DNA from: a virus
IMG/VR virus record: IMGVR_UViG_3300037189_010341
Span: 1-40,074 of that record
Length of the DNA: 40,074 bases
Strand: one strand, 5' to 3'
Under the pieces are notes generated by a model. That model had not been told where the DNA came from, searched no databases, and worked only from the letters and a program-made list of their open reading frames with translations. Positions 7,561 to 37,500 of this stretch are shown one piece after another. The translations under genes and the position numbers were made by a program. Position 1 is the first letter of the stretch; each line of letters starts with the position of its first letter.

Positions 7561-7787
7561 ACCTCCATCTGGAGTTCTTCTACAAGGTGGCCGAGCGTTT
7601 CGGCGTGCCTGTAGTCCTGCTTCTGGTGGTCATGTGGTGGGCCAAGAACGATTTGGTGCAGCCATTGCTCGACGCCCACTTCGATTTCATCCGCAAGATT
7701 ACAGTTGCCCACGATAAGCAGGCCGATGAGTTGTCTGGGATAGGCGACAAGCTGGACACGCTTATCCGCATATCAGACAACAAATGA
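7557..7787 (+). CDS. Single-span membrane protein, holin-like
   Basis: Starts at GTG 7557 (GTGA overlap with the previous stop), ATG 7509 or ATG 7401 are all in frame. I prefer the GTG because the upstream part has the low-complexity look of a shadow of the preceding gene, but no good ribosome-binding site decides this. The core is a membrane segment 'FGVPVVLLLVVMWWA' followed by a charged helix ending 'LSGIGDKLDTLIRIS'. This layout is common for small membrane proteins near phage lysis genes. The stop overlaps the sigma-factor start (ATGA). Confidence 0.55.
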   Translation: MNLHLEFFYKVAERFGVPVVLLLVVMWWAKNDLVQPLLDAHFDFIRKITVAHDKQADELSGIGDKLDTLIRISDNK

Positions 7788-8305
7788 GAAAGCGCCGACG
7801 CCTGACCGTGGCGCAGCAGCGCATGGCAGAAGACTGCCTGCGTTTCTGCAAGCCGGCGATAGCCACGTTCCTGAAACGGAACCCCGACCTCCGGGCCAGC
7901 GCCCGGCGGGTGGACTTGGAGAGCGTGGCGATGCAGGCTGTGGTCATGGCGGCGACCACGTACAAGCCAGAGAGAAGTTTGCCGACAACCTACTTCGGCT
8001 CCGCTATCCGGCACGCCCTGTTTAGGGAAGTGCTGACGCAGGCCAAGCAGGACGGCAGGTATGTCACAGTAGAAAAGATACTGGACCCTGAACCGGTGGG
8101 GCACCGCACCCGTCAGGAGATGCGGGCCCTGAAAGCCATCCGCATGCTGTCCGCTTATGATCGGACGCTGCTGGAAGACCGGCTTATAGAGGCAGTCACG
8201 TTAGAACAGCTAGGTCTAGAGCAAGGACTTGACCCACGAACGATTGCCAAGCGAGTTCGTGAAGCCGTTGAGAAACTGCGGCAGGCCGAATCAAACCTTC
8301 CCTGA
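7784..8305 (+). CDS. Sigma-70-like RNA polymerase sigma factor, phage-encoded
   Basis: This 173-residue protein has the two-domain layout of a small sigma factor. An N-terminal helical region resembles region 2 ('DLESVAMQAVVMAATTYKPERS' then 'PTTYFGSAIRHALFREVL', like the 'yF..yAl.rIrRal' helix). A C-terminal region-4-like part has a helix-turn-helix ('LIEAVTLEQLGLEQG' then 'DPRTIAKRVREAVEKLR'). Such a factor would redirect host RNA polymerase to phage promoters, probably late ones. It is the last rightward gene before the leftward block and overlaps the convergent recombinase gene by 15 bases. Confidence 0.75.
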   Translation: MRKRRRLTVAQQRMAEDCLRFCKPAIATFLKRNPDLRASARRVDLESVAMQAVVMAATTYKPERSLPTTYFGSAIRHALFREVLTQAKQDGRYVTVEKILDPEPVGHRTRQEMRALKAIRMLSAYDRTLLEDRLIEAVTLEQLGLEQGLDPRTIAKRVREAVEKLRQAESNLP

Positions 8306-9043
8306 CCGCACTAGCTTCCTGACTTCTTTGTACCCCGTGACCTTGGGGTATCCGAGAGCGTGGGCATTGAGGGCCCATCGCACCGCCTCCCTGCTGCGGA
8401 ACTGCCGCTTGTTGGGGAATTGTTTCTGCGTGTAAGACCAGAGCGCGATCCTCTCCATGGACATGCCGGCAGCATGCAGCTTGGAGATATGCTCTGCCAG
8501 CACACGCTCCTGTGGGTCCGCCCGATACACCCGATGCGGCCTCCGGCCCACTGCCTTCCAGCCAACCGGCACGCCACGGCTGAACGGCAGGCCCAGCGAT
8601 TTGCGGTAGGCGATAGTTTCCCGCACTGCCTCAGAAGAAACCTCCCTCCATAGTTGATCCGCTGCCATATGCACACGCCTGACGAACCTGCCGTGGGCTC
8701 GGGTCGTGTCAATGGGCATGTCCAGAGCGTGCAGCGTCACCCGACGCAGGCTCAACTGGTGAAGCGTGTTCTCCCCGTCACGCACAGAGCGGAATGGCCG
8801 GCTCATCTTGGCAACCACCAGATGGTCGCCGGGCTGTAGGGATGCCACCACGATCCGCCCTTGCTCTCGTTCACCGAACAGGATGGCTGATGTTATGGCC
8901 TCATCGTAGAACCAGCCCGCCAACTCCACCCCCTTGGGCAGGAGTTCGCGTTCGTAGTAGCGTTGACAGATGTCAAGCTGAACCTCCTGCGTCAAGTCCT
9001 GCTTGTCTGTGCTATGTCTGCCGTAGAGAAATGCCCGTGCCAT
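8291..9043 (-). CDS. Serine recombinase of the resolvase/invertase family
   Basis: The 250-residue protein starts with 'FLYGRHSTDKQ', the resolvase catalytic motif Y-x-R-x-S-T with the nucleophile at S11 and R9. Later, 'LVVAKMSRPFRSVRDG' matches the family block K-L-D-R-x-x-R. Both arginines are kept, but the Asp is replaced by Ser. 'DTTRAHGRFVRRVHMAADQLWRE' matches the long E-helix region. The C-terminal 80 residues contain a helix-turn-helix-like stretch ending 'FRSREAVRWALNAHALGYP'. The size is that of a small resolvase, not a large serine integrase. A ribosome-binding site (GGGGAGGG) lies four bases before ATG. A strong terminator just upstream separates it from the rest of the leftward block. 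Confidence 0.85.
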   Translation of the reverse strand: MARAFLYGRHSTDKQDLTQEVQLDICQRYYERELLPKGVELAGWFYDEAITSAILFGEREQGRIVVASLQPGDHLVVAKMSRPFRSVRDGENTLHQLSLRRVTLHALDMPIDTTRAHGRFVRRVHMAADQLWREVSSEAVRETIAYRKSLGLPFSRGVPVGWKAVGRRPHRVYRADPQERVLAEHISKLHAAGMSMERIALWSYTQKQFPNKRQFRSREAVRWALNAHALGYPKVTGYKEVRKLVRSGKV

Positions 9044-9578: not shown

Positions 9579-9778
9579 ATCACCCCCTTCAGCAAGAGCC
9601 CATGAATTAAAGCCATGACAGAGTTTGTAGACTTGTACTGGAACCACTTCTGGATGTCACGGTAGGTGGGCTGCACGCCCGTGTCCAAGATGCTCTTGGC
9701 CACGAGCCACAGCAACATATGCTCACGCTCCGTCAGACCCTCGGGGCAACCGTACACCTTGTCGGCCGGCACCTTCAT
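9440..9778 (-). CDS. Winged-helix DNA-binding protein (LexA-N/MarR-like layout)
   Basis: The first 75 residues read as a winged helix: 'LTEREHMLLWLVAKSILDTG', 'QPTYRDIQKWFQYKSTNSVMALI' as the helix-turn-helix, and 'GLLLKGVIWETTGHGFRF' as the wing. The 'PTYRDIQ.....S.NSV...I..L..KG' pattern is like the LexA N-terminal domain used by many phage regulators. The last 37 residues are Ser/Gly/Pro/Arg-rich and lie under the next gene, so they may not matter. The start overlaps the previous stop (ATGA) and has AAAGGGGGCGG upstream. Confidence 0.65.
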   Translation of the reverse strand: MKVPADKVYGCPEGLTEREHMLLWLVAKSILDTGVQPTYRDIQKWFQYKSTNSVMALIHGLLLKGVIWETTGHGFRFDWKAHVRLTPCGTVRGKRSGQSGRSPPESVVAGSS

Positions 9779-10119
9779 TCACCGCCCCCTTTCTGCTCCA
9801 AGCGATAGAGAGCATTGCGAACGCCGCTCACGCTCATCTTAAACCGGCGGGCCAGCGTGCGGGTGGCCATGCCCTTCTTCCGCAGCGCCAACAACTCCTG
9901 AAACTCCTGCGTCGTGAGGTTGGGGCGGCGGCGCTTGATGCGCCGACGCACGTTGATCGTCGCCTCGCCATTGCTGGCGGGACGGGGAGCCGGAACACGC
10001 GCCGGCGATTGGTCATCCAGCCACACCACATTGAAGCCAGCACGAATCAGAGCCACCAACTCGGCGGCATGCCGGTCCGTGTACACCAACTCCTTGCTCA
10101 CCAAACAGCGTCCAGTCAT
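9775..10119 (-). CDS. Helix-turn-helix protein (resolvase-C/Hin-type HTH)
   Basis: The C-terminal 50 residues form a classic HTH: 'LTTQEFQELLALRKKGMA', 'TRTLARRFKMSVSGVRNAL'. This matches the DNA-binding domain of Hin-type recombinases and related regulators, but no catalytic domain is present. The N-terminal 60 residues contain 'HAAELVALIRAGFNVVWLDD', followed by a Pro/Ala and Arg-rich linker. A small phage regulator is the likely role. The start overlaps the previous stop (ATGA) with AAGGAG upstream, and its stop overlaps the next start. Confidence 0.65.
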   Translation of the reverse strand: MTGRCLVSKELVYTDRHAAELVALIRAGFNVVWLDDQSPARVPAPRPASNGEATINVRRRIKRRRPNLTTQEFQELLALRKKGMATRTLARRFKMSVSGVRNALYRLEQKGGGE

Positions 10120-13170: not shown

Positions 13171-13244
13171 CGTGGCCTCCCGTTGGTGAGATAAAGGGCG
13201 ATACCGAGAAACGCAATCAGCGTGGCAATCTCATCAGCCGACAT
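13167..13244 (-). CDS. Possible 25-residue membrane peptide
   Basis: A short ATG frame begins 11 bases inside the end of the VWA gene, has GGAGGCG upstream, and ends in a GTGA overlap with the next start. The product (starting MSADEIATLIAFLGIALYL) is one hydrophobic helix flanked by acidic and basic ends. Perfect start and stop coupling on both sides is the main support. It may alternatively be only a coupling device. Confidence 0.45.
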   Translation of the reverse strand: MSADEIATLIAFLGIALYLTNGRPR

Positions 13245-14628
13245 AGCTGGGCGCCTCCTTCGTCAGGTCAACGACACGGGCCCACTTTGGAGGGGCACAG
13301 TCGTGGGCGACAGCAGCCACCACGAGACGGGCACGAGTGGGCTTGTTGGGCCAGTGCGTGCCGCAGTCAGTCACGATCACGATGCAGTCGGGACGGTACT
13401 TCGCATCGGCATACTCGATGGCATGCTGCATCCCCGTGCCGCCGCCACCGCACCACTTGAAGTCCCGCATCGAGGCAAACCGTGCGTCCCCCTGCAAGCC
13501 ATCGTCCCACGAGATGACCCGTGGATTCCGCAGCCGCCGCACACCCTGCGTGATGGCAGTCACAGCACGGGCTACGCGATCACTCTGGGCACCGCGCCCC
13601 ATTGAGCCAGACGTGTCAAGAATAATCACGCACTCCGGGTTCATGCGGATGACGCCGCGAACAGGGAAGTCATCGTGCTGCTGCATCCGGCCGGGCTTGC
13701 GGAACGTGTACTCGTCCACTCCCACTACCGTGGATGTTTCCTTGCCAACGATGGACTTCAACTGGTCATAGGGATCGGGTTGCCGGCGAAGCCGCACGTT
13801 CAGCGACTGCGACAACCTCCCCATCCCCTTGCCCATGCCCGGTCCGCCATCGTCTTCCATCTGCTGCCGGACTTCCTCCAGCCGGGCCAGATTGCCGGCC
13901 GTGCTGGCAAGATCGGACTCCAATTCGTAGTCCTGCTTGACGCCGTCAGATGCAGACCCGGACTTGCCGTGTGGCTGCTTGCCCTTGGGCTGCTTGCCAG
14001 TGCCGGGAGAACCGCCGCCGTCGCCGCTATCGTCCGATGGCTGGCCACCGGAACCCTGCTGCTGCCCCGGTTGGCTGGGCTGATTACCGGGCCCCTGACC
14101 GGGCTGTTTGCCGGGCTGCGGCTGATTGCCGGGCTGCTGACCGGGCGGCTTGGGCTGTTGCGGATTGCCGTTGTTCCACAGTATGCCGTAGTACCGCTCG
14201 GTCGAGAGTCCGGGCACCATCTCGGGGATGTGGGAGTAGTTGTCCAGTTCCACGGATGGCAGCGGACGATACTTGTCCCAGTCCGCCAGAATCTGCTGGA
14301 TGCACAGGTCTGCGGCCTCGTTCCACTTCTCCAGCATCTCCGGGGTGGCTTCGGGTATGGCCTGCTCCCGTCGCTCGGCATGGTTCAGCAGGTTGTGGCA
14401 CATCTCGTGCAGCAGAACGTAGGCGTTCTGTTCCACGCCCCACTGGTTGACCCACTCGGGGTTGATGTAGAGCCTGCCGTCGCAGTCCACGCCCATGGTG
14501 GGCACCCCGTCATCGAAGATCGTCGGGCATCCCTCCAGATACCCGCCGAGGTACTTCATCCACGCTTGGGCAATCTCCTTTGCCTTGCTCACTGCGACGA
14601 TATGCGTCGGCAGTTTGGTAGTCGCCAT
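13234..14628 (-). CDS. VWA-domain protein with N-terminal metallopeptidase-like domain
   Basis: The 464-residue protein matches the DUF2201-type layout. The N-terminal domain has 'LLHEMCHNLLNH', a zinc-binding HExxH at 74-78, and 'NEAADLCIQQIL' near 103 that could give the third ligand. Residues 155-230 form a Pro/Gly/Gln-rich linker. The C-terminal von Willebrand A domain has the metal site DTSGS at 338-342, a later Gly-rich 'GGGGTGM', and 'VIVTDCG'. Proteins of this type are partners of MoxR-type AAA+ ATPases, and the ATPase gene is the next one upstream. Together they would act as a chaperone or remodelling pair on an unknown client. The start has AAAGG eight bases upstream, and a 14-bp hairpin precedes it. 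Confidence 0.88.
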   Translation of the reverse strand: MATTKLPTHIVAVSKAKEIAQAWMKYLGGYLEGCPTIFDDGVPTMGVDCDGRLYINPEWVNQWGVEQNAYVLLHEMCHNLLNHAERREQAIPEATPEMLEKWNEAADLCIQQILADWDKYRPLPSVELDNYSHIPEMVPGLSTERYYGILWNNGNPQQPKPPGQQPGNQPQPGKQPGQGPGNQPSQPGQQQGSGGQPSDDSGDGGGSPGTGKQPKGKQPHGKSGSASDGVKQDYELESDLASTAGNLARLEEVRQQMEDDGGPGMGKGMGRLSQSLNVRLRRQPDPYDQLKSIVGKETSTVVGVDEYTFRKPGRMQQHDDFPVRGVIRMNPECVIILDTSGSMGRGAQSDRVARAVTAITQGVRRLRNPRVISWDDGLQGDARFASMRDFKWCGGGGTGMQHAIEYADAKYRPDCIVIVTDCGTHWPNKPTRARLVVAAVAHDCAPPKWARVVDLTKEAPSYVG

Positions 14629-14654
14629 GTTGCAAACCTTTCTGAGTTAGAGTT

Positions 14655-14698
14655 GCCACGGGGCGTAGCTGCGCATTCGCCTTACTACGCCCCGTGGC
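14655..14698 (-). other. Perfect 14-bp hairpin in the leader of the VWA gene
   Basis: GCCACGGGGCGTAG (14655-14668) is the exact reverse complement of bases 14685-14698, with a 16-base loop. Read leftward it is not followed by a T-tract, so it is not a typical terminator. It ends about 26 bases before the VWA start codon, close to the position that hairpins hold before other genes of this block. It may stabilise or define the 5' end of the VWA message. Confidence 0.6.
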
Positions 14699-14719
14699 GG
14701 GGAGTGAATCGACAAGGAA

Positions 14720-15817
14720 TCAAGCCATGATCTGGGCCAGCAGATTGCCGAACCGCTCCAGATAGGCGGACGGCGGACGGTAGCCGGGCTTGATCAGAGC
14801 AATCGCAGACAGCGGCTGCTTGACAGCATCGACCATGCCCTTCTCGCCAAGGGTCAGCAGCACGACGAACGCACGGTCCACCATGTCGCTCGTCAGGTTC
14901 CCCTCGTCCTTCGCCATCTGGGCGTGGAAGATGAGGGCGGACGGCAACTGGAACAGGCGGTCCAGCTTGTCGTTGAAGTTGACCTGCTTCTTGCCCTCCA
15001 TAACGTCACGAGCGGAGTACAAATCCATGGCCTCCGCGAACGTGACGAACAGGGTGGCAGCGGTCTGGCCGACGCAGCCAGACACGAACTTCACGAAGTC
15101 CTTGGACTCCGCACCGACAGCGGACAAACCAGCACAGCCCTTCTTCACGTAGTCCCACTGCCGCAGACTGGGGAACGACAAGGCATCGGGCTCCACGGCC
15201 TTGGTTTCCACGAAATCCGGCTTGCTCTCAAGGAACAGCCGAATCTTGCGACCCCACGCCATATCCCCGATCTCGCTGTTCTTCACAACGGGAATCTTGG
15301 GCTTGGGGTAGACGCCGGACTCGATGCCGATCAAGAAGTCCTGAACGGGCGTCTCCCACTTCCAGTGGAAGAACCGGTTCAGCACCGAACCCTCAAACGG
15401 GGTGGCGTTGGGGGCGATCTCCGGCGGGTTGGCAGCAGCGGTCACGATGAGGTCCGGGGCGAAACTCATGTTGCCGATCCGCCGCTCGCTCGGGTTGACG
15501 ATGGACAGCGTGACGGCACGCATCATCGAGGAACCCGTGTTGGCCTCGTCCAGATGCCACCAGCGGTTGGGCAGCGTCAGGTCGTGCATCTCCTCCAGCG
15601 GGACCATCTTCACCATGTTCTGCTCGCGGTAGATGGACGGCATGCCGGTCATCTCCTCGGGCAGGTGGTGGGTGGGCAGGAAGGCGTGGAACTTCTTCCC
15701 CGCAGCGACAGCACAAGCCTCGATAGAGGCAGTCTTCGCCACGCCAGTACCGCCCCATGCCATGGACGGTACACCGACCTGTGCCGCCACGTAGAACGGC
15801 AGGTTCTTCAGACTCAT
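14720..15817 (-). CDS. MoxR-type AAA+ ATPase
   Basis: The 365-residue protein has AAA+ motifs: a Walker A region 'WGGTGVAKT' at 21-29, Walker B 'HLDEAN' at 88-93, sensor-1 'TAAANP' with N130, and a candidate arginine finger in 'SVLNRF' (R148). The helix insert and the 'H.LPEEMTGMP' segment after the first strand are typical of the MoxR group. The Walker A loop reads G-G-T-G-V-A-K-T, with Ala where Gly is usual before the Lys. MoxR ATPases work with VWA proteins to remodel or activate clients, and the VWA gene follows. The ATG at 15817 is chosen because GGGGAG lies nine bases upstream; a GTG three codons earlier abuts that site too closely. Confidence 0.85.
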   Translation of the reverse strand: MSLKNLPFYVAAQVGVPSMAWGGTGVAKTASIEACAVAAGKKFHAFLPTHHLPEEMTGMPSIYREQNMVKMVPLEEMHDLTLPNRWWHLDEANTGSSMMRAVTLSIVNPSERRIGNMSFAPDLIVTAAANPPEIAPNATPFEGSVLNRFFHWKWETPVQDFLIGIESGVYPKPKIPVVKNSEIGDMAWGRKIRLFLESKPDFVETKAVEPDALSFPSLRQWDYVKKGCAGLSAVGAESKDFVKFVSGCVGQTAATLFVTFAEAMDLYSARDVMEGKKQVNFNDKLDRLFQLPSALIFHAQMAKDEGNLTSDMVDRAFVVLLTLGEKGMVDAVKQPLSAIALIKPGYRPPSAYLERFGNLLAQIMA

Positions 15818-15856
15818 CGGAAACACTCCCCAGTGTCAAAGGAAAGGAAACAAAAA

Positions 15857-15921
15857 CCGGGGGGGGCCGGCAACACGCCGGCCCCCCGAAAACCACTCGC
15901 CGGGGCGCCTCGCCCATGGCG
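15857..15921 (-). promoter_or_regulatory. Leader repeat copy A (before the MoxR gene), with terminator hairpin
   Basis: Read leftward: GCCATGG, then GAGGCGCCCCGGCGAG, then TGGTTTTC, then a perfect 11-bp stem GGGGGGCCGGC/GCCGGCCCCCC with a five-base loop (15861-15887), then GGTTTTTG. The T-run after the stem could also make it a terminator for the upstream gene. The hairpin ends about 44 bases before the MoxR start. Four other copies share the core (see the entries near 17335, 18078, 18261 and 18875). Confidence 0.7.
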
Positions 15922-15925
15922 ACGA

Positions 15926-16828
15926 TCACTTGCCCTGCGACTTGCGGATTTGCAGTTCCGCCAGCAGTTCGCAGGACTTGGACAACGCGGCCCGGGCAGC
16001 TTGCAGGTTCGTGCCGAACTGCGTTTCGTAGTAGTTGGCCAGTTCCGCGAACTCTGCCAACTGCTTCATCCGGGTATCCATCCCGTTCTTCCGTGGCGAC
16101 TTGTTGTTGTCGATGATGTCCTGCATCACATCGTTCATCGACTCACACTCCGTCACCAACGTGTCGTTCGTGGCCTCCAGCACCTGTTTGACCAGTTGCG
16201 GGTTGTTGCGGAGGTCTTGCGTCAACAGGACGCAAGTGCAACCAGCGGAGTTGAGGTCTGCGAAGACCTTGTCCACAGCACCGACAGCACAATCGGGAAC
16301 GAAGTACGCACCGCCCCGCTCCTTGAGCGGAATCCCCTTGTTGCGGCCGATCAGCCCGATCAGTGCATCCGTCACATCCCGGCTGGGCATGTAGGCGAGA
16401 TGCCGCTGATACAACTGATTCAGGATCGTGTCCACCTGTGGATTGGCGAAGAAAGCCGCCAAGTTGGGATGGACGCCGACCTTGACCACGAACACGGTGT
16501 TCGTATCATCGACGCCAAGCGAGAACAGGAACTCACGCTGGTTCTGCTTGTCGCCCTTGTGGGTCTGATAAAACTCCACGCCGACGCCGGTCCGCGACAA
16601 GCTGTCATGCTTGACGGGGGCCTTGCGCTGCTTGATGTTTGCAGCACCCACCACGTTCTTGCCAGTCTCGACCAGAGCGTCGAAGTTGTCGATGGCGGGG
16701 ATGTTCTCCTCGCCAACCGCCTTCAGCGCGTTCAGCACCGTCTGCCGCAGCACACGGTGTGCCGTCCAGAGTGCCACACAGCCGACTGTGGCAATCATGA
16801 CGCCAGTAAGAGGAATCTTCTGAGCCAT
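15926..16828 (-). CDS. Membrane-anchored protein of unknown function next to the MoxR gene
   Basis: The ATG at 16828 follows AAAGGACAG and directly exposes a hydrophobic segment ('IPLTGVMIATVGCVALW'), so it is preferred to the longer frame that crosses a terminator. The 300-residue product continues with an extended soluble domain: 'REFLFSLGVDDTNTVFVVKVG', 'SRDVTDALIGLIGRNKGIPLK', 'GAYFVPD', and a C-terminal coiled stretch ('QDIIDNNKSPRK', 'RMKQLAEFAELANYYETQFG', 'AARAALSKSCELLAELQ'). The layout resembles uncharacterised proteins of about 300 residues that accompany MoxR/VWA genes, but I cannot prove a family. It is likely a client or partner of the ATPase pair. Confidence 0.65.
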   Translation of the reverse strand: MAQKIPLTGVMIATVGCVALWTAHRVLRQTVLNALKAVGEENIPAIDNFDALVETGKNVVGAANIKQRKAPVKHDSLSRTGVGVEFYQTHKGDKQNQREFLFSLGVDDTNTVFVVKVGVHPNLAAFFANPQVDTILNQLYQRHLAYMPSRDVTDALIGLIGRNKGIPLKERGGAYFVPDCAVGAVDKVFADLNSAGCTCVLLTQDLRNNPQLVKQVLEATNDTLVTECESMNDVMQDIIDNNKSPRKNGMDTRMKQLAEFAELANYYETQFGTNLQAARAALSKSCELLAELQIRKSQGK

Positions 16829-16860
16829 CGCAAAACTGTCCTTTCGTATCGCAGGGAGTG

Positions 16861-16907
16861 GAAAAAGAACCGCTGCCAGTGAGACTCCCGCACTCACTGG
16901 CAGCGGT
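16861..16907 (-). terminator. Rho-independent terminator / leader hairpin, 15-bp perfect stem
   Basis: ACCGCTGCCAGTGAG (16869-16883) is exactly complementary to 16893-16907, with a nine-base loop. Read leftward it is followed by TTCTTTTTCC, so it should terminate transcripts of the small acidic protein gene (16931-17290). It also ends about 40 bases before the start of the next gene (16828), the same position as the leader hairpins of this block. Confidence 0.8.
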
Positions 16908-16930
16908 CAAGCTGCACCGACGTACACTCA

Positions 16931-17290
16931 CTAGCCGACGATCTTGAGGATCAGGGCCACAGCGTCACGCAGAGCCAGCAGGTCAGCGATGCTGATCCCG
17001 TTGGCATACGCAGCCGTGTCGATCTCCTCGGCGGTGGGGTCCACGTAGCAGACCTTGGCACCGGAGAGGTTGGAGAACGTCGTGGCATCGTCCAGCACGA
17101 CCACCGGAGTGGTAACGCCGGACTCGGCCTTGGCAACAGTCGCCGCCACGGGCTTGACCACGACGGGCTCGGGAACAGCAGCAACCGGGACCGCAGCGGG
17201 CTCCTTAGCCTTGGCAGCGGACTTCTTGGGCTCCACGGCAGCAGCACCTGCCGCCATCTCACGCAAACGGGCCAGAATGTCATCGGACAT
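16931..17290 (-). CDS. Small Ala/Val/Pro-rich acidic protein
   Basis: A 119-residue protein with AGGAGG nine bases before ATG. Residues 15-60 are Ala/Val/Pro/Lys-rich and look like a flexible linker. The ends are more ordered: 'DDILARLREMA' at the start, and 'AEEIDTAAYANGISIADLLALRDAVALILKIVG' (in two pieces) as C-terminal helices. The linker plus terminal helices suggests an adaptor or scaffold-like protein, but this is a guess. It is flanked by leader repeat B upstream and a terminator downstream, so it is probably transcribed in part as its own unit. Confidence 0.65.
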   Translation of the reverse strand: MSDDILARLREMAAGAAAVEPKKSAAKAKEPAAVPVAAVPEPVVVKPVAATVAKAESGVTTPVVVLDDATTFSNLSGAKVCYVDPTAEEIDTAAYANGISIADLLALRDAVALILKIVG

Positions 17291-17334
17291 AGCAACGAAC
17301 CTCCTGAAACATGGGGAAACCGAACCACTAACCA

Positions 17335-17394
17335 GCGGGGCAGGCTACGCTGCCGGCCCCGAAAACCCCTCGCCGGGGCGCCTCGGCCATGGGC
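17335..17394 (-). promoter_or_regulatory. Leader repeat copy B
   Basis: Read leftward: TAGCCCATGG, then CCGAGGCGCCCCGGCGAG, then GGGTTTTC, then GGGGCCGGC/GCCTGCCCC with a six-base loop and one mismatch. The hairpin ends about 46 bases before the start at 17290. The bases before the start (GGTTC... then AGGAGGTTCGT) also resemble the stretch before the 18045 start. There is no T-run after the stem, unlike copy A. Confidence 0.7.
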
Positions 17395-17403
17395 TAAGGC
17401 GTA

Positions 17404-17613
17404 CTAACGACTCCTGCGGTAGCACCGCAATGCACGCTGTTCGGAGCCTCGGGGCACAATCACGGCGTATCCGGCCGTCTTGTGCCCGTACTCCATCAGC
17501 ACCATACGCGGCGTTTCCCCGGAACAAGCAATGCAGCACACTGCCTTGCCTTGGTTCTTGAGAACACGAACCCGCTCTCTCGGGATGGGCTGCGAGCAAT
17601 AGGGGCACTTCAC
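17404..17613 (-). CDS. Small zinc-ribbon protein
   Basis: The GTG at 17613 has AAAGGAG six bases upstream and is 12 bases after the previous stop. The 69-residue protein has 'KCPYCSQPIPRE' and 'AVCCIACSGETP', two CxxC knuckles about 22 residues apart, which would bind one zinc. The rest, 'MVLMEYGHKTAGYAVIVPRG' and 'RALRCYRRSR', is basic. It may bind nucleic acid or another phage protein; no family was recognised. Confidence 0.65.
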   Translation of the reverse strand: MKCPYCSQPIPRERVRVLKNQGKAVCCIACSGETPRMVLMEYGHKTAGYAVIVPRGSEQRALRCYRRSR

Positions 17614-17625
17614 GATGGGCTCCTT

Positions 17626-18045
17626 TCAGTTATTGTCGAACTCGCGGGGATTGGTGCTGATCTCGATGATGTGGAACTTGCGATCCTCGGCATACGTGCA
17701 GTGCGCATTTACCCAGCCTGACGCCTGCTGTTCGGAGTCAAACGGCCCGACGATGCACTCCTCGTTGAAGTTCTGCCCGTCCTCCTCCATGAAGTGAACC
17801 ACCCACGCCCCGACCACCGGAATGTCGCCCTCTTCCAACTCCATCTCCATCTCGCTGTCGAAGACTGCGGTGATTTCGTCCACCCGCAGAACCAGCGTGC
17901 GGATCAGCGTGCGGATGGTGCGGTCATAGTCCGGGGCCTTCGGATCGAGCTTCCACAGTTCGTGGGCAACATCCCGGGCGGCGTAGACCATCCGTTGCAG
18001 GGTCAACAGCCGCATCGTCACAGCCCGGGCCATCTTCGTGAACAT
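17626..18045 (-). CDS. Unrecognised protein, first gene of the leftward block
   Basis: The ATG at 18045 is chosen (GCGAGG upstream); the frame stays open further upstream but only because it runs through leader repeat C. The 139-residue product has a basic helical N-terminus ('MARAVTMRLLTLQRMVYAARDVAHELW'), a helix 'RTIRTLIRTLVLRVDEITAVFDSEME', and then a domain with 'VVGAWVVHFMEEDGQNF', 'CIVGPFDSEQQASGWVNAH' and 'FHIIEIS'. The second part resembles small alpha/beta domains that often end phage regulatory proteins. No catalytic motif is visible. Confidence 0.62.
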   Translation of the reverse strand: MFTKMARAVTMRLLTLQRMVYAARDVAHELWKLDPKAPDYDRTIRTLIRTLVLRVDEITAVFDSEMEMELEEGDIPVVGAWVVHFMEEDGQNFNEECIVGPFDSEQQASGWVNAHCTYAEDRKFHIIEISTNPREFDNN

Positions 18046-18077
18046 GACAAACCTCGCAGGTTGAAGAACCAAGTACC

Positions 18078-18135
18078 GTCGCCGGCGACACTGCCGGCCT
18101 CCGAAAAACCCTCGCCGGGGCGCCTCGGGCATGGG
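18078..18135 (-). promoter_or_regulatory. Leader repeat copy C
   Basis: Read leftward: GCCCCATGCC, then CGAGGCGCCCCGGCGAG, then GGTTTTTC, then GGCCGGC/GCCGGC(G) with a six-base loop. The hairpin ends about 33 bases before the start at 18045. Just upstream is GCTATCGCCTATAG (to about 18152), which also occurs in shorter form before copy E as GCTATCTATAG, so the conserved unit may include a promoter-like part. Confidence 0.7.
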
Positions 18136-18235
18136 GCTATAGGCGATAGCAAACCCAACGCCATGCGGCCAAAACGGCCCGAACGCCCATCCGCCCATGG
18201 GGGCACTCCCGGCCACGCTCTACCTGCACCTGTAC

Positions 18236-18255
18236 CTGTACCAGTTGCGGTACAG
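18236..18255. promoter_or_regulatory. Operator-like 7-bp palindrome in the divergent region
   Basis: CTGTACC and GGTACAG are exact reverse complements separated by six bases. A second CCTGTA half-site lies just before it (about 18229). It sits between the divergent leftward start (18045) and rightward start (18346), where a dimeric repressor such as the small HTH proteins of the leftward block might bind. No protein can be assigned to it from sequence. Confidence 0.4.
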
Positions 18256-18260
18256 ATACA

Positions 18261-18313
18261 CGCCATGGCAAGCCGGCCCCGGCGAGAGCTTGTTGCCGGG
18301 GCGAGTGCCCCGC
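18261..18313 (+). promoter_or_regulatory. Leader repeat copy D (rightward)
   Basis: On the forward strand: CGCCATGGCAAGCCGGCCCCGGCGAG (in two parts), then AGCTTGTT, then a hairpin CGGGGC/GCCCCG with a four-base loop (GAGT). The hairpin ends about 33 bases before the start at 18346. It is the same element as copies A-C in the opposite orientation, matching the opposite direction of the gene it precedes. Confidence 0.65.
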
Positions 18314-18345
18314 TAGCGACGTTTCCCTTAACTTTGGAGGCTACC

Positions 18346-18693
18346 GTGGCAATGCAAGAGCGAACCGTGACGATCATCAAGCAGGACGGATGGGACGAGT
18401 ACATGGCCGAACACCACGGCCACACGGCGTTCACCAACGCGATTGGCTACCTGTCCGAATGGAACATGTGGGCCAACCGCTTCGACAGCGTTCGCATCAC
18501 CTGCTCCCTTGGTCGCAATGGGGACCAGCCGGAGATCGGCGCCAGCTACACCCGCACCGAGTATGACTGCGGCAATGGCCGGAAGTCGGCCACAGTGACG
18601 GACGGATACTTCATCTGCGCCATCTTCCAGCCGCAGCAGTCGGCGTCAGAAGACGAACAGGCCCGTCTCGCCCGCTTCTCGTTCCACTCTTGA
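18346..18693 (+). CDS. Unrecognised small protein behind leader repeat D
   Basis: GTG at 18346 has GGAGG five bases upstream; an ATG two codons later is also possible but farther. The 115-residue protein begins with 'RTVTIIKQDGWDEYMAEHHG' and continues with 'NAIGYLSEWNMWANRFDSVRITCSLG' and 'ATVTDGYFICAIFQPQ', an alternation of strands and short helices. No catalytic or binding motif was recognised. It is the first rightward gene after the divergent region. Confidence 0.6.
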   Translation: MAMQERTVTIIKQDGWDEYMAEHHGHTAFTNAIGYLSEWNMWANRFDSVRITCSLGRNGDQPEIGASYTRTEYDCGNGRKSATVTDGYFICAIFQPQQSASEDEQARLARFSFHS

Positions 18694-18874
18694 ACCGCCC
18701 CACTGTGCCAAACACCGGACCAACAACCCATGTACATGGCTGCTTGTTCCAGTTGTTCCGGCCACAACGGTTCAAACGCCCTCAAATCCGGCCCAAACGC
18801 CATGATCCCACGTTGGGTGGGCATGGCATGGGCCGGTATTCGACAAGCTATCTATAGTCGCCGTTCCGCTATTC

Positions 18875-18931
18875 CAGCGGCGCCCCGGCGAGAGCTTTTC
18901 AGCCGGAGCGGTCGCCGGCAGTATCGACCGC
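18875..18931 (+). promoter_or_regulatory. Leader repeat copy E (rightward)
   Basis: On the forward strand: AGCGGCGCCCCGGCGAG, then AGCTTTTC, then a region that can pair as GCCGG/CCGGC or, more strongly, as GCGGTCG (18908-18914) with CGACCGC (18925-18931). It ends about 26-38 bases before the start at 18957. Upstream lies GCTATCTATAG, similar to the sequence upstream of copy C. The CCATGG part seen in copies A, B and D is not present here. Confidence 0.65.
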
Positions 18932-18956: not shown

Positions 18957-19379
18957 ATGGCCCGTATTACTTCCACCCCTTCCCCGGTCCAGCACCAGCC
19001 CGCCGACATGGCTGCGCTTTTGAAAGAGTTGGCCGACCTGCGGTCCGCCCTGTCTTCGGCGCAGTCCCGGGGAGCCCGCAAACCGGGTTTCCATGTCCGG
19101 CCTGTCCCCGTGCCCAAAAAGCCGGGTACGCCGCCTGCCCGGGCTCTGGCCGACGTGGTACTGCCGGGCGGCTCGATCACCCTGTCGCTCTACGTGGGAG
19201 CCCACGGGAAAGCGACGTTCGGGGGTGGGTTCGGTTCGCGGGGGTTCGGCTTGTGGGGGGAGGACGTTGGCCCCTTCTGCGATTGGTGCGAGTCGGGGGC
19301 GCTCCGTGCGGCTCTGAGTCGGCCGGAAATCGCGGCTCATCTGGAGCCCCGTTGGAACGGCACTGGCGCCGCGGAGTGA
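18957..19379 (+). CDS. Unrecognised protein behind leader repeat E
   Basis: A good site (AAGAGGGAG) precedes ATG. The 140-residue protein has an N-terminal helix 'MAALLKELADLRSALSSAQS', a basic Pro-rich linker, and a Gly-rich second half ('LPGGSITLSLYVGAHGKATF', 'GSRGFGLWGEDVGPFCDWCES') with a C-x2-C pair. Function unknown. A strong terminator follows. Confidence 0.6.
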   Translation: MARITSTPSPVQHQPADMAALLKELADLRSALSSAQSRGARKPGFHVRPVPVPKKPGTPPARALADVVLPGGSITLSLYVGAHGKATFGGGFGSRGFGLWGEDVGPFCDWCESGALRAALSRPEIAAHLEPRWNGTGAAE

Positions 19380-19423
19380 TGCCCGGACAACCGGGACGGG
19401 CATGATGCCCGATGGATCGACAG

Positions 19424-19466
19424 CCGGCCCGGGGCGCATGGAAGCGTCCCGGGCCGGTTTCATTTC
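19424..19466 (+). terminator. Strong Rho-independent terminator
   Basis: CCGGCCCGGGGCGC (19424-19437) pairs with 19444-19457 over 14 bp with one G-U pair and a six-base loop, followed by TTTCATTTC. It ends the two-gene rightward unit before the late region. Confidence 0.85.
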
Positions 19467-19665
19467 ATGCGCCGCACGGCACGCCGTCCCCATGGGCGGC
19501 GCGGCGCCGTGGCCGAAGGTACGTTCGGCCACACTCTAACGCCGTCCCCATGCAGCACATACGGCACAGACGGACCCCGCCCACCCCCAATGGGCGACCC
19601 AAGGAGCCCACGTACCCCCTCTGGATTTTTTCCCAAATACCTCACTGCCCCTCGGCTGGGGGGGA

Positions 19666-19739
19666 TGCTGACTCTGGCGTCAAGTTTTTTTGCCATAAAA
19701 CGTGACATGCTGACGTGCTGACGCTGCTGACATGCTGAC
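19666..19739 (+). repeat. Iteron-like array of TGCTGAC
   Basis: Five exact copies of TGCTGAC start at 19666, 19708, 19716, 19725 and 19733. The last four are nearly head-to-tail with 8-9 base spacing. An AT-rich patch lies between the first copy and the other four. Such arrays bind initiators or regulators in other systems; the protein for this one is unknown. Confidence 0.65.
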
Positions 19740-19745
19740 ACCGAC

Positions 19746-19774
19746 TTCCCAGATACAGGCAGGCCCGCTATAAC
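19746..19774 (+). promoter_or_regulatory. Candidate promoter giving a leaderless message
   Basis: TATAAC (19769-19774) matches five of six bases of the -10 consensus. TTCCCA lies 17 bases upstream (19746-19751) and matches four of six bases of the -35. The ATG of the HNH gene begins eight bases after the -10 box, about where transcription would start, and there is no ribosome-binding site in between. Confidence 0.4.
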
Positions 19775-19781
19775 CCCCGCC

Positions 19782-34562: not shown

Positions 34563-37500
34563 ATGGGAAAGGCTTTGGTGCAGAATTGGGTCGGCTTGGG
34601 CACGGCTATCAGCCCGTATGTCCTGCCACCGGGGGCGACAGTCCGCCAGAGCAACCTTCAGATCAAGCGCCCCGGCGAGCTTCGCCAAAGGCCCGGCATG
34701 GACTCTGTCTACATGTCGGCGGACTACAGCGAAATCTTGGGCATGTACCGGGTCAGCAATGGCTCTGTCGCGCTCAATGATCTAATCGTTAGCGCACGCA
34801 CGTCTGCAACTGCGAACACCCTCCGCTACCAGACGCCGACTGGGGTGGACGATAGCTGGTCTGTTACTCCCGCATACACAATCACCACCTCGTCTCTGGT
34901 CAGCCCGTCGTTTGCCGAAGACCGGCACGGGCGGATTTATGTGTTTCACGGCAACGGCGTGGACCCGCTGGTGGTGTCCAGAAAAACCAAGCTGGCAACC
35001 ACGGCCGGGCTCGTCGCGCCGACGATTGCCCCGACAGTGACGCCATCTGGGAACGGTTACTTCATCGAGCGTGTCGATGTTCTGGAGGGCGGCGGTTCCT
35101 ACTGGGCGGCTCCAGACATTGTGGTGACGGGCGGCGGTAGCCGTACTCGCGGTGCCAAGCTCAAGGCCATCGTCCAAGGCGGCTCTGTGGTTGCCGTTGA
35201 TGTTGTGGACGGCGGCTCTGGATACCAGACAGCACCGACCCTTACCGTAGACGAGTCTGGCGTTAAGGGCGTTGGCTTTCGCGGCTACGGAGTGATTGGC
35301 GTAGACCCCGGCATCCAAGGGCTTGAGCCGGTATTCATCAGCAGCGCGTCAATCACCAACACCAGCACCAGCGTCTCCAGCGTCGGCCAGATCGAGAGCG
35401 TGCGTGTCGGCGCCACCGTCTCCGGCAATGGCATTCAGTCTGGCACCACAGTGCTTTCCCGCGACCCTGTTGCCCGCAGCCTCACGCTTTCGCTCGCCGC
35501 CCAAGCGACCAACGCCTCGGCGCAGCTTACGTTCAACGAGGGCGTTCGCACCGGCAGCACCGGCAGCACGTCGCACGGCCTTAGCCTAGACGTGTCGGCA
35601 ACTACGATAGCGTACTCATTCACGTCTACTGTGACGCTGACCAACGGTCAGGCCGTAATCAGCAACGTCGCCAGCCTCTCGCGTTTGCTGGTCGGCGCCA
35701 TCGTGATTGGCGGCACTGGCGTAGTAGTAGGCACCACGGTGACCGCGATCAACGCCGACACCGGCCAAGTCACGCTATCTGCGAACGCCACGTCGAGCGG
35801 CACGCAGACCCTGACGTTCATGCAGGGTGCTATCGCTACCTATGACGGCGTGAACGGGAAGTACACAGCCCTTATCCCGCTGACTGCCGGAACCAACGCC
35901 AGCACAAGCGTCCAGTCTGTGGGCGCTGGAGCGTCGGCGCTAGTCTCCTTTACCGTGCTGCTCGACACGCTGTCGCGGAACGTCAACATCGGCGGCTCGG
36001 CGGATTCAAGCTGGCCGCTGCAATATAGCTGGCTGGGGGCATCTGCCTCCACGCTAACCACAGCCAACGACTACTGGGTTAACACAGACGATTGCTCGCA
36101 AATCGCCACGAACACCACGATCACTTGGGCATACGCTCCTTATCAGTGGAAGAACAACAACTGGGATTTCTTTGCGTCATTCGCACCAAGTCCTCGCGTT
36201 AATTTCCACAGCCGCTGCCCAATCGCTGTAAAGCAATATCAGACTTCTGGGACGGGCGGCACCACATACACGCCGTTCACGGTTTACTCGGACCTGTACG
36301 CCTACGATTTCGGCTACATCTCGCTGCGGTACTTTACCGGCGGCAGGACGGAACTGGAGACGGCTTCAGACACCAGCGACAAGTGGGTGTGGGTAACGCT
36401 GCCTGTTGGCGTGTCGGTCGCGGGCGTGCCATACGTGGACGTGACGCTGACTCCGGCCAAGAAAACCAGCACAACCAACTACACCACGTACTCCAACTAC
36501 ACCCCTCCTGTTGTCCGCGTGTGGCTCACGTACTGCCCCGACAGTTGGGTCAGCGGAGTCAACGACAACCAGATCAACGTGGGGTGGCGGCGGACAGTGG
36601 GCTCTACACGTCCGGGCACCACCGGGAACTCCACGAACGCCGCGACTGTCACGACTGCCAAGGGGTGGTGGAGCGCTGGCGCTGCCGAAACCGGCGTGTC
36701 ACGTCGCCCAATCGTCAACTTCCGGCAGGGACCGAACCTCGCTGACGGCGTGGGCCTCACGTCCCAAAGCGTGCAGGTGCTGAACACCGGCTCTGGCATG
36801 GAGCTTCAAACCTTCTTCGCCATACAGTTCGACCAAGTAAACGCCTCCCGGCTGTTTGAAGGCCCGAACTTTCGTGAAACCACTGCCGCGTCTAACTACA
36901 CAGACAACTCCATTCTTCGTCCTTCGCCCGGCAATCCGGCAAGCATCGCCTATACGATCAACGACTTGGAGTTTGCGCCGGCTTCTCCGGCGTTTTCGGA
37001 CGAGTGGAACCAGACGTTTAACACAGCCCGATTCAACAAGACGTTCAGCCAGTACAGGCAGCGACTGTACTTCTGGGCAGACAGCATCGACGCGGGGCAG
37101 CAAGGCCCGCCGGGCTTGGTGATGGGAACGCCATCGGTCACGGTGCCGGGCAGCAACTTCCTGACCGGAGACAGGGCGTCGTTTACCCTGCAACAGCGAA
37201 GCGACCTGACCTCGTCGGCAACTTTTAGCCCGAGCTACACATACACGTTCACCGCCCGGCAGATCACGCCTGCCGCCAGCACAAACTCCATCACGTCAGT
37301 AGTGGTGTCCAGTTCTGGGACCAACTACTACGGCACTCCCACGCTCACGTTTACTGGCGTTGGCTATGGGCTGGAGATGGACGCTGTCATATCCGGCGGT
37401 GCAATAACGCAAGTCAACGTGCTGAACGGTGGCTCTGGGTTCACCACATCGCCGGTGGTGACGGCAGTGGCCGAGAAAGCCAAGATCATCCCCGTCATGC

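Follow-up and report, generated by a model that had tools for sequence, protein, structure and literature searches.

Lambdoid nut sites, made up of boxA and boxB, and the put sites of phage HK022 are phage-specific leader elements that carry hairpins and head divergent early operons, and the hairpin promoters of the N4 virion RNA polymerase are short stems, closed by loops of three bases, close to where genes start. Stoperators, found in Cluster A mycobacteriophages such as L5 and Bxb1, are short, transcription-oriented sites whose consensus and specificity differ between related phages (PMC6550527). Cluster K mycobacteriophages possess Start-Associated Sequences (SAS), which are repeated, mostly in one orientation, upstream of the starts of non-structural genes, and extended SAS (ESAS), the inverted-repeat consensus of which differs between subclusters (PMC3203893). 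Here we describe a repeated leader element in a phage represented by IMG/VR record IMGVR_UViG_3300037189_010341, of which positions 1 to 40,074 were analysed (hereafter the window; apart from a single base it matches the final 40,074 bases of IMG/VR record 3300032318_001284, 62.5 kb, which we call G001). The element is present in five copies, each pointing the same way as its gene. Our preferred reading, to which sequence comparison leads us to assign a probability of roughly 45%, is that it is a phage-specific, oriented regulatory site marking the heads of early transcription units.

Along the downstream gene, 5' to 3', the unit reads CYATK-N8-GCCCCGGCGAG-N-G, followed by a hairpin and then by a Shine-Dalgarno-like stretch and the start codon. 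A first-pass annotation of the window had proposed five copies oriented with the genes, most of them preceded by CCATG and all followed by a hairpin. Exact cores were found at all five places, at 15896-15906(-), 17369-17379(-), 18111-18121(-), 18276-18286(+) and 18882-18892(+); CCATG does lie upstream of four, the fifth having CTATT, and a hairpin is seen after each core. Copies 3 and 4 flank the start from which a leftward block (window position ~18.1 kb down to 8.3 kb) and a rightward block (from 18.26 kb) diverge, most other genes being rightward; copies 2 and 1 occupy gaps in the leftward block and copy 5 a gap in the rightward block. Internal copies start 7-14 bases past the stop codon of the preceding gene.

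Copy 1 (15861-15919, minus strand), in the leader of a MoxR ATPase gene, has its box at 15915-15919 and its hairpin at 15861-15887, reading GGGGGGCCGGC GTGTT GCCGGCCCCCC and then GGTTTTTG, with GGGGGGCCGGC as the 5' arm just as the annotation had it. Copy 2 (17337-17392, minus strand) leads ORF 16931-17290, with its box at 17388-17392 and a hairpin at about 17337-17361, and copy 3 (18081-18134, minus strand), at the head of the leftward operon and on the leftward flank of the divergent region, has its box at 18130-18134 and the hairpin GCCGGC AGTGTC GCCGGC at 18081-18098. On the rightward flank, copy 4 (18263-18311, plus strand; box 18263-18267) has a core arm, GCCCCGGC, that pairs with GCCGGGGC at 18295-18302, and an alternative pairing of GGGGC with GCCCC extends up to 18311. 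The core arm of copy 5 (18869-18931, plus strand; box 18869-18873) pairs with GCCGGAGC at 18902-18909 with one mismatch, and GCGGTCG/CGACCGC forms an alternative hairpin at 18908-18931.

A third-order Markov model predicts some 0.1 occurrences of the core GCCCCGGCGAG(N)G per window; in 200 simulations the core was absent from 182, found once in 16 and twice in 2, and no simulated window held six copies of any 11-mer. A sixth exact match in the window, at 34669(+), lies inside a large tail gene without flanking box or hairpin. When two mismatches were allowed there was no enrichment in the window (26 matches against 32.8 expected), and hence the signal is the exact core and its context. Rfam returned no covariance-model match at gathering score and only chance-level matches below it.

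All of the genomes compared are metagenomic contigs, several of them partial. One relative, G002 (IMG/VR 3300032050_000141, 61.1 kb), is about 75% identical in nucleotide sequence over much of its genome and is probably complete, given a terminal repeat of ~127 bases. It carries the same core as G001 at all five syntenic places and in one extra copy, bearing out the expectation of further copies in related phages. Across the 11 copies of the two phages, 12 of the 13 core bases are unchanged and most of the remaining sequence drifts; a CYATGG-like box stands 8 bases upstream of the core in ten copies and 9 bases upstream in the other. The five or six copies of each phage all lie close to the divergent region, and the genes between them have been partly exchanged. 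A pattern scan of IMG/VR with the window core matched solely the longer record of the same phage, and BLAST of the region against isolate phages gave no match. A sequence-only model (R1), built from the 11 copies, gave no strong copies in phages other than G001 and G002, because those phages hold different cores at the same places.

Seven further related phages, among those gathered by searches with the terminase, the MoxR protein and a 69-aa protein encoded at 17404-17613 (p17404), have repeated leader elements at equivalent genes. Their cores differ: GTCGGCAAGTGCC in G006 (two copies, in a contig that begins at p17404), TTCGCTGCCAAAC in G009, TTCCGGGCCAAAC in G020, GTGCGGTGRG in G023, GGGGGCGAGGG in G024, GGCGGCAGGGC in G025 and CCACGGTT in G026. 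In a matrix of counts each core is concentrated in its own genome or pair of genomes, with counts of 0 to 2 elsewhere, and an IMG/VR scan with the G009-type pattern gave multiple copies in G009 and G020 only. The element stands in the MoxR leader of seven of the nine phages (G001, G002, G006, G023, G024, G026 and, at a contig end, G009). For nearly every copy in the nine phages a same-strand start codon follows 37-84 bases past the end of the core, and the copies without one are at contig ends or are missed Shine-Dalgarno matches. In G019, whose MoxR is 33% identical, no core was seen in the leaders inspected. The sequence CCCCGAAGGGG was considered as the core of G023 and G024 and rejected, being a separate upstream hairpin found in leftward copies only. 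Different cores at equivalent places, which the window by itself could not reveal, strengthen the case for a leader element.

The comparison of G009 with G020, whose proteins share 90-98% identity across most of the region compared, refines this picture. At four syntenic copies GCT in G009 becomes CGG in G020 while the flanks stay alike, and a fifth syntenic copy differs at the same place, the G009 variant there being TTATCT; an ATGG/TTGG box lies at a fixed distance from the core in both phages. The same three-base change in syntenic copies makes independent drift implausible, and can be explained either by co-evolution with a reader or by recombination between copies. Two very similar phages with copies that differ by the same three bases represent a near-ideal natural experiment.

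Under the preferred reading, a core of about 11-18 bases, identical within one phage and different in most relatives, would be recognised by a factor of phage-dependent specificity, most simply a phage-encoded protein. Recognition would occur at the start of the unit, on DNA or on the nascent leader RNA, and together with the downstream hairpin would set whether transcription continues into the gene some 40-85 bases downstream or how strongly ribosomes start on it. Since the signals differ per virus, the regulator that reads them probably differs from virus to virus. Control of elongation, as a stoperator-like block or as an attenuation/antitermination switch, appears most likely, because the sites sit in operons just past stop codons and at the divergent start, and stoperators behave comparably (PMC6550527). 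We infer the reader protein, the level of recognition (DNA or RNA), the early timing and the sign of the effect; the element may be a leader RNA, an operator or a promoter. In favour of the preferred reading are the phage-specific cores at equivalent genes, the shared three-base replacement in G009 and G020, the invariance of the core while its flanks diverge, the regular distance to a start codon, the position of copies at the divergent start of both blocks, the lack of a phage RNA polymerase among most of the predicted proteins and, as set out below, the folding energy 3' of the core and a compensatory upstream hairpin in four phages. Several points weigh against it. Only some half of the internal hairpins, and hardly any of the divergent ones, are accompanied by a T tract, so attenuation through intrinsic termination would not be general; the concerted switching could also come from recombination between copies; the helix-turn-helix of the best candidate regulator, encoded at 9775-10119, is almost unchanged between G001 and G006, yet the cores differ; and no candidate protein accounts for the reader role. 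More tentatively, we may be dealing with a new class of phage leader that is structured and bears a rapidly switching identity tag, in which a lineage would rewrite the same few bases in all of its leaders together, tracking a putative phage-encoded RNA- or DNA-binding regulator, such that close relatives could not read one another's early genes.

A possible though doubtful alternative is that only RNA is read: core and hairpins would make up a 5' leader to which a phage RNA-binding protein, or the polymerase itself as at nut and put sites, would bind, controlling antitermination, mRNA processing or translation, and the DNA would not be recognised. The hairpin 3' of the core is significant as a family, its summed energy over 33 copies from seven phages being -651 kcal/mol, where 200 shuffle sets averaged -514 and went no lower than -553. 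Taken singly, 14 of the 33 copies fall below 0.06; many phages and patterns were examined, so little weight should be placed on marginal values for single copies, and the evidence lies in what the family shows as a whole. Also consistent with an RNA element are an arginine-rich stretch in the candidate regulator, overlapping alternative hairpins in the rightward copies, and the upstream hairpin of G023-G026, CCCC-GAA/TTC-GGGG, which has compensatory pairs. In an alignment of that hairpin, whose rows are few, related, chosen for matching the hairpin core and typed in from contexts, 98.7% of cells are paired and the covariation score is 0.255, against 0.078 for shuffled alignments (0/500). Yet the rightward copies of G024 keep the core with no upstream hairpin and a weak downstream one, and the invariance of the core spans stem and loop alike. 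Nor is covariation supported in G001 and G002: RNAalifold on the window copies and those of G002 found compensatory change in 1 of 17 pairs of the leftward set and in none of 13 of the rightward set, with unfavourable covariation terms, so that the covariation-like hairpin arms of the first-pass annotation are not borne out on these copies. Three rightward copies form a strong helix between core arm and downstream sequence (hairpin 1); in the leftward copies it is not individually significant.

Less probable is a phage-specific promoter with a structured leader, in which CYATGG would act as a -10-like box and transcription would start in the region of the core, through the host polymerase aided by a phage factor or through a phage sigma-70-like factor. 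The fixed spacing of box and core in G001 and G002, the box of G009 and G020, likewise at a fixed distance, and the presence of a copy at the beginning of each unit would all suit a promoter, as would the sigma-70/ECF-like product of 7784-8305(+) (TIGR02937, E 1e-10; 41.5 bits, where the cut-off is 42.9). That protein, however, ranks with the best conserved of the non-structural proteins (67-91% identity within the group); between phages that include one with a different core its conservation is 89-91%, and it occurs in G019, where no element was seen. No sigma-70 promoter-like site was found at the copies, the internal copies begin immediately after stop codons, as given above, and a terminator-like hairpin directly follows copy 1. 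The original proposal of a leader or promoter-leader unit for a regulon including the MoxR ATPase keeps its leader, which is shared on both strands, recurs before the corresponding genes of related phages and has a hairpin significant family-wide, and loses support for a sigma-70 promoter; overall, that interpretation is partly supported. Family searches of most, but not all, predicted proteins found no phage RNA polymerase, and the host polymerase is therefore presumed; they named no N-like protein.

The candidate regulator at 9775-10119(-), which we would link tentatively to the core, combines its arginine-rich stretch with a C-terminal helix-turn-helix. AlphaFold predicts a confident three-helix C-terminus (pLDDT ~90 over residues 71-100) in an overall model that is poor (mean 67.5). 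Orthologues occur in G002, G006, G023 and G024, with no match in G019, and that of G024 has an extra core copy in its own leader, which would fit autoregulation. Either this or the sigma-like protein as sole reader of specificity was rejected, both being too conserved between phages with different cores. In G023 an ORF adjoining the candidate regulator (L113 14332-14823, minus strand) matches the LexA DNA-binding domain (E 2.6e-8).

It is improbable that the copies are recombination linkers, that is, homologous patches kept alike by recombination that permit exchange of gene cassettes and have no regulatory role. Genes between copies have indeed been swapped between G001 and G002, G002 having two other genes, each preceded by its own core copy, in the position of ORF 18346-18693, but the copies follow gene direction and keep a set distance to the start codon, the hairpin is kept though its sequence varies, and the G009/G020 switch is limited to three bases. 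An earlier argument against simple terminators, that neither rightward copy has a gene ending before it, holds for copy 4 and fails for copy 5, where a gene ends at 18693, 189 bases upstream. Ordinary intrinsic terminators with GC-rich arms alike by chance are the least credible explanation: copy 1 scores as one and other gaps of the leftward operon have core-less hairpins, but a GC-rich hairpin with a direct T tract does not characterise the class (copy 1 is the only clear case in the window), copies 3 and 4 have no upstream co-directional gene, and the core is repeated far above chance and conserved in G002.

Gene calls around the copies are simple ORF choices backed by homology, not gene-finder output. 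Downstream of copy 1 lies the MoxR-type AAA+ ATPase gene (14720-15826, minus strand; phrog_1297 ATPase, E 3e-27), with a likely ATG start 78 bases past the core. It is paired with a gene for a DUF2201 metallopeptidase/VWA-like partner (13234-14628, minus strand), the pair spanning 13234-15826; a distant MoxR homologue of ~24% identity is found in a group of Escherichia phages. The leader of the partner gene has a hairpin without a core, as does that of a conserved ORF of the leftward operon (15926-16897, minus strand; true start probably at a later codon than listed), where the hairpin is terminator-like; the core is thus a feature distinct from the hairpin. Between this ORF and the small ORF downstream of copy 2 (16931-17290, minus strand) there is a near-perfect inverted repeat, 16851-16921, whose leftward strand carries a T-rich tail, and similar hairpins occupy the same gap in G002, G006 and G019. 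The p17404 product (minus strand) is a CxxC...CxxC protein with a strongly conserved VLMEYGHKTAGYAVIVPRG stretch, an orthologue in all nine element-bearing phages and no family match. Copy 3 precedes the first ORF of the leftward operon (17626-18045, minus strand), which evolves fast (29% in G002). On the plus strand, copy 4 precedes a 115-aa ORF (18346-18693) with orthologues in G009 and G020, and copy 5 a 140-aa ORF (18957-19379). Beyond the latter, 19380-19781 is an apparently non-coding stretch of ~400 bases that holds short repeats of the TGACATGCTGACG type and a strong hairpin; it may be a replication origin or a terminator region. The leftward block ends with a small serine recombinase of resolvase/invertase type (8291-9043, minus strand), which is conserved throughout the group and could point to integration or inversion. 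A terminase search of genome contigs found one short contig in a Planctomycetia assembly, a weak hint of the host that misbinning could explain.

The described systems each share part of this arrangement. Like nut and put sites, the elements are phage-specific, hairpin-bearing leaders at the heads of divergent early operons; unlike them, no boxA was recognised and no N-like protein named, and there are several copies per operon before individual genes. A likeness to N4 promoters lies in the short stems, looped by three bases, close to the starts of genes in G023-G026, and in the MoxR-type ATPase of ~24% identity in Escherichia phages of 49-71 kb, but scans of most, not all, predicted proteins gave no large virion RNA polymerase, and the largest proteins look like tail or ejection proteins. 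SAS lie 3-7 bp from the start codon and contain AGGAG, whereas here the core ends 37-84 bases away and is no Shine-Dalgarno sequence; in ESAS departures within the repeats lend no support to RNA pairing, whereas hairpins are retained here. With stoperators the element shares an asymmetric site oriented with transcription and a consensus that varies between related phages. It differs in having five or six copies at one hub rather than 20-30 sites genome-wide and in the hairpin after the site. Stoperators are bound by the phage immunity repressor, a part for which the helix-turn-helix protein would be the candidate here. In its working the element appears to resemble both stoperators and SAS/ESAS, and by copy number and distribution on the one hand and distance on the other it is filed in neither class. 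The core can be discovered in each genome without homology, which offers a possible route to the regulatory units of uncultured phages, and the nine phages would represent a second, unrelated group in which early-gene sites appear to diverge into specificity classes, as in mycobacteriophage immunity.

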